In this document: piece by piece, positions 4,815-9,443 of the stretch
Layout of the letters: every line of letters begins with the position of its first letter
Numbering within the stretch: position 1 is the first letter of the stretch
DNA from: Acidobacteriota bacterium
GTDB lineage: Bacteria > Acidobacteriota > Blastocatellia > UBA7656
Assembly (NCBI GenBank): GCA_040754075.1
Contig: JBFMDH010000008.1
Span: forward strand, 135,410-199,409
DNA: 64,000 nucleotides
Direction of reading: 5' to 3'
The notes under the pieces: model-generated
Seen by the model: the letters and a program-made list of their open reading frames with translations, nothing else
Database searches by the model: none
What the model was told of the DNA's origin: nothing
Program-made: the position numbers and the translations under genes

Positions 4815-6746
4815 ATGCCGCTCAGTAAATCCGAACTCAAGCAATTGGGTGACACTTTACACGCGCGTTTACTTGAAGCGCGCGATGACGGCGTGGTGTC
4901 GGAAATTTCCGAGCATTTTCTTCAACTCCTGGTCAAAAGCCTGAGCCGGCGATTTTATAAACAGATTCACGACCCGCATATCATCGCTTCGGCGGCGATT
5001 GATGCGTTAATGAGTTTTTTGAAACAGCCGGAAAAATATGTGCCTGCCAGAAGTAAGAACGGATTGTTCGGTTATCTATTTATGATTGCTGCAAGAGATT
5101 TGTTCACCATATTAAATCGGCAAAAAGCTTTTGTGCCGGTCGAGGCAATCGACAGCGAAATCCTGTCGCGCAAACGCCGCAGCGATACGCCTGAGCGTAA
5201 GCTTTTAGAGGATGAATTGCTGCGCGAAATTCAATCGCCGCTCAATGAGGTGGATAAAAAAATCGTGGCATTGATGCTCGATGGGGTGCGCGGCACCGAG
5301 CATTACGTTGAGATTTTAGGTATTCAGGATAAACCGGCGATGGAACAGGCGGTCATTGTAAAAATGAATAAAGACCGCTTGAAAAAATCGTTGAAGAAGT
5401 TGATTAGAAAGCTTGGCTATATCAGCTTGCCCGGCGGTTTGATTCTGGTGGTGCAGCGTTGGGCGAAAGCCGCGACTCAAAAAGCCGTGCCGCATCTGGT
5501 TAATCTTTTGGCAATCGCCATTCTGGTTGCGACCAACGCGCTCATTCTGCACAAACATAACCGTGAAGTTCAGGCGGCACACACGACGAACGCTTTCAAT
5601 CAAGCGCCGCAACAGCGCCCTGCACCAAACGGAATGAAAGGGCGTTGGGTAGAAAAAATATTTTTTGCTTCAAACAGAGCCAAAGAGCAGGGAACCATTC
5701 AACGCCACATCTGGATGATTAACCCGGATGGTTCACAACCTGAACAAGTGACCTTTGGTGATGTGGCGGATGAGAGTGTCAAAGTTTCACCTGATGGAAC
5801 CCGTATCGCATTTACGCGACGGGAAAGGCCAAGGGCGATTGATGAAGGCAATGCCAGTTCAAGCATTTTCATTAAAGATTTACTTACCGGAGAGGAAATT
5901 CCTGTTACTGATAAGTTCGATTATCCAAATTCCGAGCATTATTCTTTCGGCCCCGGTTGGTCACCGGATGGGACGAAAATCGCATTTGCTCGAAAAAGCT
6001 CAATAGACCCTGATGGTCGCGGTAAATTCGGCAATCTCTGGATTATGGAAATTTCCCCTGCGATAGGTGAGCCTTATGAACCGCCGCAAGAAAAGGGTTG
6101 GGGTAAATATGCGCCATCGTGGTCTGCGGATGGCAAAACGATTTTGTTTATGAAGCACCTGTGGGTTGATGGGCAGCTAACCATTTTTCGGCTTGATTTG
6201 ACAACCGGACGTGAAGAAGAGGTGATTCCACTGGTTGAAAATGAATATCAGCCGAAGTATTCGCCTGATAGAAATAAAATTCTCTGGATAACCTATCGTC
6301 ACAGTTCAAATGGAGGAGATATTTATATTGCCGATGTTGCCGACCCGGTCAACACGCAATATCGCGTCACAACTTTTTCAGGGTGGGAAGAGTCGGATTG
6401 GTCGCCCGATGGAACCCGTGTTGTATCAGCCAGACATAGTTATCAATTAAACGAAACGTCGTATAAAACGATGCCGCTGGCGCATATTCCCGATGATGTG
6501 ATTGAAAAGCTGCAACCGCTAAAAGATCAAATCTTCTCGAAAGAAGAGGAGTTTTTAACTGCCGTTAGTGAGTTGCTCGGAGCAAACAGGACAAAAATAT
6601 ACAGCTACCGGATCACTCAACACGGTAACGTCGATGATGAAGATTTATGGATGATGGATATTGACGGCAGTAATCCCGTGCAAATCACCGCAGGCGCTGA
6701 TTCGGACGAAGCGCCCTGCTGGGCTTATATTTTTCAACCTGAGTAA
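4815..6746 (+). CDS. Sigma-70-like domain fused to a membrane helix and PD40/TolB-like propeller
   Basis: 643 aa. Residues 1-200 resemble a compact sigma-70 family factor: region 2-like HDPHIIASAAIDALMSFL plus YLFMIAARDLFTILNRQK, then region 4-like NEVDKKIVALMLDG and KDRLKKSLKKLIRKLG. A hydrophobic helix follows (about 226-245, NLLAIAILVATNALIL). Residues 278-643 form repeated WD40-like/PD40 blades with SPDGTRIAF, SPDGTKIAFAR, SADGKTILF and SPDGTRVVS. PD40 propellers usually bind peptides or sugars outside the cytoplasm. The order predicts a cytoplasmic sigma-like head tethered to a periplasmic sensor, which is inference. There is no signal peptide. An upstream GAGAGG could be the ribosome site. 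Confidence 0.8.
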   Translation: MPLSKSELKQLGDTLHARLLEARDDGVVSEISEHFLQLLVKSLSRRFYKQIHDPHIIASAAIDALMSFLKQPEKYVPARSKNGLFGYLFMIAARDLFTILNRQKAFVPVEAIDSEILSRKRRSDTPERKLLEDELLREIQSPLNEVDKKIVALMLDGVRGTEHYVEILGIQDKPAMEQAVIVKMNKDRLKKSLKKLIRKLGYISLPGGLILVVQRWAKAATQKAVPHLVNLLAIAILVATNALILHKHNREVQAAHTTNAFNQAPQQRPAPNGMKGRWVEKIFFASNRAKEQGTIQRHIWMINPDGSQPEQVTFGDVADESVKVSPDGTRIAFTRRERPRAIDEGNASSSIFIKDLLTGEEIPVTDKFDYPNSEHYSFGPGWSPDGTKIAFARKSSIDPDGRGKFGNLWIMEISPAIGEPYEPPQEKGWGKYAPSWSADGKTILFMKHLWVDGQLTIFRLDLTTGREEEVIPLVENEYQPKYSPDRNKILWITYRHSSNGGDIYIADVADPVNTQYRVTTFSGWEESDWSPDGTRVVSARHSYQLNETSYKTMPLAHIPDDVIEKLQPLKDQIFSKEEEFLTAVSELLGANRTKIYSYRITQHGNVDDEDLWMMDIDGSNPVQITAGADSDEAPCWAYIFQPE

Positions 6747-7025: not shown

Positions 7026-9443
7026 ATGGATATACGTGTGTTCAGTAAAAGCCTGTTAATGGTTTTAGTATTTTCTTTCACTGTCGTGTTGATTTGTGGC
7101 GTAATCAAACCAAGCAGCGCCTCAGCTTCCTTAACATTTACAGAAATTGGGGCAAGTGCAGGGATAACCGAACCAACTGATGCTAACGGGTCAAGCGTGG
7201 CAGATTTTGATAGCGATGGATTAGAAGACCTGATTTTGGTTGGGTATTTACCATCCGTCACCGGGAATACGTTAAAACTGTTTCATAACAACGGCGACGG
7301 CACCTTCAACGATGTAACGGATTTGTGGGTTGATCTATCGAGTGTGCAAGCGCAGGATGTTCGATTCAGCACTTGGGGCGATTTCGATAACGATGGCGAT
7401 TTAGATGCGGTTTTGGGAACCAGTAACCCAGCTAAACTGATCTTCTATCGCAATAATCAGGTTGGCTCAGGAAGCCCAATCCTTTCGGTGATGCAAACAA
7501 TTTCCGAGCCTATAAACTTATTCTATCTAGCGTCCTGGGCAGATTATGATAACGACGGCGATTTAGATTTGCTGGCTAATCGTTTTCCTGGCACTTTATT
7601 GCTTCTCAAAAACCATCTCAAGGAAACCGGTACCCCATTGTTTACAGATGTGTCTATCGTTGCAGGAATTGACCAGAATGCCATCACCGCTTCCAGTTTG
7701 CACTGGAGCGATGTTGATAACGACGGTGATGTAGACCTCTATGTGATCAATGACAAGAACTATACTTCTTATCATAACTTTTATCGAAATCTTCTCATCC
7801 CGACGGGCAATGCCGTTTTGCAGGATGAAACCGTGGCTGTAGGTTTGCCAAGATCGCTCTATCAAGCTACTCACGCGCAGTTTGCCGATTATGATGATGA
7901 CGGTGACATGGATATTTATTTCAATCTGGGATTCTTTACAGCAAATCTGCTTTACAAAAATAACTTTGTTGAAACTGGTGTGTTGAGTTTCACCGAACAA
8001 CCCAACGCTTTAGGCGCGACCAGCCCGATTGATGGGGGATATGAAATAGTTTGGAGTGATTATGACAACGATGGCGATATTGATCTACTCAATGGTGGTG
8101 GCAGTAATGACCCATCATTTTTGTACCAGAATCTATTGGTTGAAAATACTGTTCCTGGCTTTGCTGATATTACTACAACAGCGGGATTGTCGGGACAGAG
8201 TCACCGAAATTCAATGTTTGCCTTCGATCTGGAAAATGATGGCGACCGCGATATTTTCATGGGGTACAACGGCATTGGTGCTAATCGGCTCTATCGTAAC
8301 AACCTCACAGACAGCCATTGGCTATCTCTGAACCTGGTAGGGACGACAAGCAATCACGATGGCATAGGCGCGCGAATTATGTTGCGAACCGGAACCCACA
8401 GACAATATCGCCAACATAACATTCCAGGGTCGTGGACAACGGGAATTCAGAGTCATCGCCTGCATTTCGGACTCGACAGCGCCAATATCATTGATGAAAT
8501 TGAGATTCGCTGGACTTCGGGATGTACACAAACACTTACCAATGTTGCAGCCAATCAAATTTTGACTGTCGTCGAAAACTGCAATGACACCCAGCCCCCT
8601 TCAATCGTCTGTCCAGCAAACCTTGTCACCACTGCGGCTTCAGGGGAAAGTTCGTTGGCCGTAACCTACCCGCCGCCTACAGCCAATGATAACGCCGGTA
8701 TACCGACAGTGGTTTGTTCACCATCTTCCGGTTCAACATTTCCGTTAGGCATTACCACCGTCACTTGCACAGCAACCGATGGGGCAAATAATCAAACGAG
8801 TTGTACCTTCAAAATTGTAATCTCCGGCACGCTCCTCGCCGTTGCCGACAACTTCCTCAGAGATGGCGCGGACAATACCAATGAAGGCGCGAATGAACGA
8901 TTGCGGATTCAAAGTTCCGGGCATAATCGTGTGATTGTCAGGTTCAATCTATCAGGCATTTCAACCGATGGATTGCAATCTGCAAACCTCATCCTGAACA
9001 TCGCTGAAAACTCCGATAATTGGGGAACCACCGGACGTTTGGTGGATGCGCATCGGTTGCTTGCCGATTGGACGGAGGGCAACGGGCGCAATGATGTGAT
9101 GGTCGGTGGCGGTCAAGGTTTTCGCGGCACCGGCGAAGGCGCAACTTGGAAATGCGCCAAGGATAGCAACATCAACAATCAAAATGATGACTGCGTTTCG
9201 CCTTGGAACGGCGGCAGTTTTGCTTCGGCGACGGCTTCAAGCATTCTGCATATCAATAACCAAATGGGCGATGTGAGTTGGAATGTCCTGGCTGATATGC
9301 AAGCCGGAGCCGATTATGGATGGTTGATTAAAAAGCAAGCTGAAGGGCAAAACGGACAAGTGCGCTACTATTCGCGCGAAGGGGCGACACTTGCGGGCAA
9401 CGCCAATCTCGCTCCTCGACTGGTTTTAATTTATCAACCCTGA
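7026..9443 (+). CDS. Secreted FG-GAP/VCBS repeat protein with ASPIC, HYR and DNRLRE-type domains
   Basis: 805 aa with a signal peptide (about 1-37). Seven FG-GAP/VCBS blades follow, each with an acidic calcium-binding-like loop (DFDSDGLEDLI, DFDNDGDLDAV, DYDNDGDLDLL, DVDNDGDVDLY, DYDDDGDMDIY, DYDNDGDIDLL, DLENDGDRDIF). Next is an ASPIC/UnbV-like segment (about 435-520: GIGARIMLRTG, QSHRLHFGLD). Then comes a HYR domain (about 523-600, PPSIVCPANLV to TCTATDGANNQTSCTFKI). The C-terminal DNRLRE-like module spans about 605-805. This is a typical extracellular adhesin or surface-binding layout; the ligand is unknown. A strong AAGGAGG sits 5 bases before the ATG. Confidence 0.88.
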   Translation: MDIRVFSKSLLMVLVFSFTVVLICGVIKPSSASASLTFTEIGASAGITEPTDANGSSVADFDSDGLEDLILVGYLPSVTGNTLKLFHNNGDGTFNDVTDLWVDLSSVQAQDVRFSTWGDFDNDGDLDAVLGTSNPAKLIFYRNNQVGSGSPILSVMQTISEPINLFYLASWADYDNDGDLDLLANRFPGTLLLLKNHLKETGTPLFTDVSIVAGIDQNAITASSLHWSDVDNDGDVDLYVINDKNYTSYHNFYRNLLIPTGNAVLQDETVAVGLPRSLYQATHAQFADYDDDGDMDIYFNLGFFTANLLYKNNFVETGVLSFTEQPNALGATSPIDGGYEIVWSDYDNDGDIDLLNGGGSNDPSFLYQNLLVENTVPGFADITTTAGLSGQSHRNSMFAFDLENDGDRDIFMGYNGIGANRLYRNNLTDSHWLSLNLVGTTSNHDGIGARIMLRTGTHRQYRQHNIPGSWTTGIQSHRLHFGLDSANIIDEIEIRWTSGCTQTLTNVAANQILTVVENCNDTQPPSIVCPANLVTTAASGESSLAVTYPPPTANDNAGIPTVVCSPSSGSTFPLGITTVTCTATDGANNQTSCTFKIVISGTLLAVADNFLRDGADNTNEGANERLRIQSSGHNRVIVRFNLSGISTDGLQSANLILNIAENSDNWGTTGRLVDAHRLLADWTEGNGRNDVMVGGGQGFRGTGEGATWKCAKDSNINNQNDDCVSPWNGGSFASATASSILHINNQMGDVSWNVLADMQAGADYGWLIKKQAEGQNGQVRYYSREGATLAGNANLAPRLVLIYQP

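Follow-up and report, generated by a model that had tools for sequence, protein, structure and literature searches.

One gene in the window (the whole 64,000-nucleotide stretch of DNA that was analysed) encodes sigma-like regions 2 and 4, a membrane helix and a PD40 propeller in a single protein. This combination, put forward by a sequence-only reading, was borne out by structure, relatives, hydropathy and Pfam (Table 1). We regard it as somewhat probable that the protein is a membrane-tethered sigma-70-family (ECF-like) factor with its own sensor, silenced by its tether and released by propeller-triggered proteolysis. Sigma factors fused to a membrane sensor or to WD40-like repeats are already known; what is new is a TolB-propeller variant without an anti-sigma domain.

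Table 1. Features of the fused gene, in window coordinates.
Feature	Position	Strand	Basis
Whole fused gene, 643 aa	4815..6746	+	ATG start, intact ORF; full-length collinear ortholog, 40% identity
Sigma region 2, residues 5-106	4827..5132	+	Model helices, VIA superposition, hhalign of family
Sigma region 4 helix-turn-helix, residues 126-199	5190..5411	+	Model helices, sigma-E alignment, clade alignment, TIGR02937
Short hydrophobic/amphipathic helix beside region 4, basic distally, residues ~206-223	5430..5483	+	Model, low confidence, pLDDT ~50
Transmembrane helix, residues 227-245, N-in/C-out by charge	5493..5549	+	Hydropathy, flank charges
Linker, low confidence, residues 246-278	5550..5648	+	pLDDT 32-53
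PD40/TolB-like beta-propeller, presumed extracytoplasmic, residues ~279-643	5649..6743	+	Pfam PD40; Foldseek TolB 4r40_C

Identity and divergence of the sigma half

Pfam matches to the window protein were essentially PD40 repeats only (E 1.1e-19, 70.3 bits against a cut-off of 20.9), and no Pfam sigma match was obtained for the protein taken alone. When the N-terminal domain was scanned alone against NCBIfam, residues 34-200 matched TIGR02937 (sigma70-ECF; E 6e-4, 19.4 bits; 16.6 bits for the whole protein), which is below the curated cut-off of 42.9 bits, a recognition threshold and not a biological criterion. A PDB sequence search with residues 1-222 yielded no informative match, the best being an unrelated phosphocarrier at E 0.97. 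Because the window protein alone scores below curated cut-offs, the sigma assignment was based on relatives and structure. A fused ortholog (L012:5414-7489) passed Pfam Sigma70_r2 (24.3 against a cut-off of 24) and PD40 within one protein, and two free-standing relatives passed Sigma70_r2 at 29.0 bits (L017:3389-4015) and 27.8 bits. Alignment of the family with ordinary ECFs of the class by hhalign gave 97.9% (E 3.8e-13) across region 2.

Residues 1-250 were modelled from 19 aligned sequences with a pLDDT of 84.6, mostly >90 inside both sigma regions, and with helices at 5-22, 25-46, 54-70 and 83-105 (region 2) and at 126-140, 145-155, 161-168 and 175-199 (region 4). The best Foldseek matches of this model were nearly all sigma factors, at modest E values (best 0.01). 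Comparison of residues 1-200 with sigma regions 2 and 4, which the sequence-only reading had suggested, yielded a sigma fold: the top VIA-align match was E. coli sigma-E (Z 12.0, 161/164 residues, model 4-204), with a large rmsd that was read as a differing angle between the two predicted domains. Region 2 alone was superposed on SigW, SigK, SigC and sigma-E at VIA Z 10.7-11.4 and rmsd 2.1-2.9 Å. High scores can arise by chance with helical models; here the match list was near-uniform in family and spanned both domains. The window protein shares with ECFs the fold and sequence of region 2 (via the family and ortholog) and a region 4 helix-turn-helix that follows a short linker, without region 3. 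The sigma identity of the N-terminal half was confirmed, well beyond chance.

In region 2.2 the window protein has Ser59 where ECFs carry a near-invariant Asp and Ile62 where Gln/His is usual; Asp63 is retained. The clade is marked by a longer turn preceding the recognition helix and by the signature VKxHKDR[LI]K. The recognition-helix segment of the window protein (175-199) bears the clade motif VKxxKDRLKK and reads VKMNKDRLK at the signature, with M/N in place of the clade R184/H185. The sigma half was filed as a divergent member, sigma-70-family-like and not a typical ECF. Divergence at the polymerase-contact positions of region 2.2 is consistent with a protein that is no longer a polymerase subunit and acts as a sigma-derived DNA-binding regulator, or as a protein-protein adaptor or decoy. 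The same could be argued from the scores of the window protein alone, which lie below the curated sigma cut-offs, and from the sister clade's place in methyltransferase (MTase)/M78/HerA operons, where a sigma-like helix-turn-helix could serve otherwise. However, both sigma regions are retained in their order and some sisters reach 40.5 bits, near the TIGR02937 cut-off of 42.9, and we consider loss of the polymerase role quite unlikely.

Membrane topology, propeller and comparison with known fusions

The protein has one strong hydrophobic helix (Kyte-Doolittle mean 2.16), flanked by charges of +3/-0 before and +2/-1 after. A short hydrophobic helix occupies part of the ~27 residues that separate the end of the region 4 recognition helix from the membrane; in all three fusions found (see below), region 4 is followed by 12-14 hydrophobic residues and then by an R/K-rich stretch. 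The full-length model had a pLDDT of 69.8, and its C-terminal half was a propeller with best matches to TolB structures (Foldseek 4r40_C, E 6.1e-12). An N-in/C-out orientation, which would put the sigma half on the cytoplasmic side of the inner membrane and the propeller on its outer side, was inferred from the flanking charges, from the cytoplasmic setting of sigma domains and from a second fusion in the related genome G003, which carries an HYR domain. HYR domains are typical of exported proteins.

The genome of the window (G000) also encodes a winged helix-turn-helix (wHTH)-TM-PD40 protein (L082) and Ser/Thr kinase-TM-PD40 proteins. Like the fusion, these join a cytoplasmic output to one TM helix and PD40 repeats, but their output is not a sigma module. 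Their presence in the same genome suggests that the propeller half is a common sensor module carrying different outputs. Trans_reg_C gave 32 matches in G000, and some 20 of these fell in ORFs of 650-1160 aa, which suggests that the genome encodes a large repertoire of membrane-bound one-component regulators.

The sequence-only reading had called the one-protein design unusual, which as to its kind was overstated: descriptions exist of ECFs that carry membrane sensor parts (ECF48/52/53, IutY) or WD40-like repeats (ECF57; PMC8999054), and G003 encodes two further proteins of a sigma-TM-large-domain kind. These (L135:705-3596 and L136:460-3324; 963 and 954 aa) have an ordinary N-terminal ECF sigma, one TM helix near residue 450 and a large C-terminal domain, and represent another sigma-TM-sensor design in Acidobacteriota.

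ECF52 (SCO4117, Streptomyces), like the window protein, combines a sigma domain, a transmembrane region and an extracytoplasmic sensor (PMC5826349, PMC8999054), but differs in its zinc-finger anti-sigma domain, its carbohydrate-binding module and its restriction to Actinobacteria; the window protein has a TolB-like propeller. The window protein shares with ECF52/48/53 a TM helix C-terminal to the sigma domain and lacks their zinc-finger anti-sigma: residues 1-630 contain no Cys, the gap between region 4 and the TM helix is only ~27 residues, and no match to an anti-sigma domain was obtained between sigma and TM in Pfam or NCBIfam. ECF57 and the WD40-fused Planctomycetes ECFs likewise place WD40-like or propeller repeats C-terminal to sigma (PMC8999054, PMC8567305), but in ECF57 two conserved cysteines link sigma2 and sigma4, and the window sigma half has none. 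Neither the fused membrane anti-sigma domain of IutY nor its iron-siderophore cell-surface signalling is visible in the window protein. Since it has neither the zinc-finger anti-sigma nor the ECF57 cysteines, the window fusion is not assignable to ECF52 or ECF57.

The ECF57 WD40-like repeats are thought to mediate protein interactions (PMC8999054), and TolB-type propellers bind proteins such as Pal (from the titles of the structure matches), which would suit a propeller that is a docking surface and not a signal receptor, with the membrane helix for localisation only. The membrane helix between the sigma half and the propeller, however, separates the two sides, and binding of an outside protein would itself be a signal, so that the docking and receptor readings overlap. 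A docking role of this kind appears improbable.

Distribution of the fusion, free-standing sisters and the partner protein

The same fusion, which the sequence-only reading had proposed to look for in other genomes, was found as a collinear ortholog of the whole protein (L012, 40% identity) in Chloracidobacterium sp. UBA7656 (G003), of the same family and another genus, which speaks for conservation of the fusion. An assembly chimera was considered and rejected, as a full-length collinear ortholog exists in a related genome. In the second G003 fusion (L011:5459-8197) this sigma half and membrane segment are joined to a YVTN-type propeller with an HYR domain. In the tree the two UBA7656 fusions group together (96/97) and the window sequence lies in an open fork, not firmly placed.

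Fusions were rare, being present in only 2/162 genomes of the class (G000, G003). Among the matches listed for a sample of 396 phylum genomes (G003 not among them) there was no fusion besides the window's own, and no clade member with a long ORF was found in 392 Planctomycetota genomes. The N-terminal domain occurred as ten copies in seven genomes when 98 near genomes were searched, and at E <1e-59 in 8/162 class genomes; the next matches of the family profile in the class were ordinary ECF-sized ORFs (~200 aa, E 1e-9 and weaker). A search for relatives with the window sequence alone found none. An alignment-based locus search gave 18 loci, found through the motif K[RKQ]HKDR[LI]K, a motif that the window protein itself does not carry (KMNKDRLK), so that fusions diverged there could be missed.

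Gene neighbours were not conserved between the window and L012 fusions and were therefore not used as functional evidence. The next gene downstream in the window (7026-9443) codes for an FG-GAP/ASPIC-UnbV/HYR protein. Its C-terminal part, made up of HYR and a 'DNFLRDGADNTNEGANERLRIQSSGHNR' domain, is closely similar to the C-terminal end of the L011 YVTN fusion. A promoter/terminator scan around the window gene gave no clear excess over shuffles, no upstream motif common to the three fusions was apparent by eye, and PADLOC gave no match for the fused protein.

Apart from the fusions, the sigma clade is divergent and free-standing, with sisters 22-42% identical to the window domain. These sisters belong to the same clade as the window domain but are not membrane-bound and have a small partner. 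Most free-standing copies lie in a conserved operon of an N6/N4 DNA methylase, the sigma, a partner of ~120-170 aa, an M78 (ImmA/IrrE) peptidase, a ~400 aa protein and a HerA-type ATPase, which was found in Acidobacteriota, Chloroflexota, Thermodesulfobacteriota, Planctomycetota, Bacteroidota and a mycobacterial MAG. Loci of this operon (L017:2106-8575; L018; L019; L031-L034; L036-L042; L087) cover at least six phyla. PADLOC recognised in it generic MTase and HerA parts and only a weak capP-like peptidase, and no description of the operon was found in the literature searched; it resembles a genome-conflict (defence) system not yet catalogued.

The partner family was present in exactly those 6/162 class genomes that have a free-standing sigma, and absent from the fusion-only genomes G000 and G003. 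Such a split among eight genomes has a chance of 1 in 28, in a small sample with two fusion genomes and for a pattern noticed post hoc. Two free-standing copies in G001 (L014, L015) have no adjoining partner gene, and the partner is encoded elsewhere in that genome. At L013:4492-9704 and L016:1064-6283 the sigma clade adjoins a partner bearing a TM helix and an outer domain, in which respect the partner resembles a membrane anti-sigma; a long TPR-CHAT-type protein is also encoded at both loci, and at L013 it follows the sigma and TM partner. We infer that in the fusions the membrane anchor in cis replaces control by the partner in trans.

Proposed tethering and release

In the mechanism that we think somewhat probable, the tether, ~27 residues past the recognition helix, would keep the sigma half from promoters or from core polymerase. 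This inhibited state was deduced from tethering alone, because the stretch from region 4 to the membrane leaves no room for an anti-sigma domain. The propeller may bind an envelope ligand or protein and thereby open the stalk to attack by a site-1-type protease. Cleavage within the membrane would follow and free the sigma half, which could guide RNA polymerase to its target promoters. A dedicated partner would impose this restraint in trans on the free-standing sisters, and the fusion may have made that partner unnecessary.

Release by intramembrane proteolysis is plausible by analogy with IutY (ECF243, Pseudomonas putida), in which one protein serves as a membrane sigma factor and is switched on through proteolysis by Prc/RseP (PMC8999054), and with ECF48/52/53, for which a proteolytic release route has been proposed (PMC8999054; ECF52 also PMC5826349). 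M50 (site-2) proteases are present in the window genome and also in 14/14 control genomes, and their presence was therefore not counted as evidence for release.

The fusion might instead act uncut, from the membrane, with the signal shifting the orientation or oligomeric state of the sigma half and polymerase being recruited there. The CadC class works while membrane-bound, and about 20 long wHTH proteins in the same genome, one of them shown to be wHTH-TM-PD40 (L082), would favour action of this type. However, promoters are recognised by sigma only within the holoenzyme, which is harder from a ~27-residue tether, and release is the view taken of the TM-fused ECFs described so far (PMC8999054). 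We consider action from the membrane unlikely.

As to the origin of the tethered sigma factor, we suggest tentatively, as a reading that we think less likely than not, that a sigma clade of mobile, probably genome-conflict-related, partner-controlled operons was captured as an envelope sensor, that the partner became dispensable after fusion to a membrane helix and that the propeller has since been swapped (TolB, YVTN). If so, a sigma factor regulated in trans would have been converted naturally into a one-component membrane switch. If the mechanism of tethering and release is right, a sigma factor, its anchor and its receptor would form one chain lacking an anti-sigma domain, a compact natural example in which to ask directly whether attachment to the membrane is enough to silence a sigma factor. 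It would also link this poorly described clade to a partner family that behaves like its regulator.
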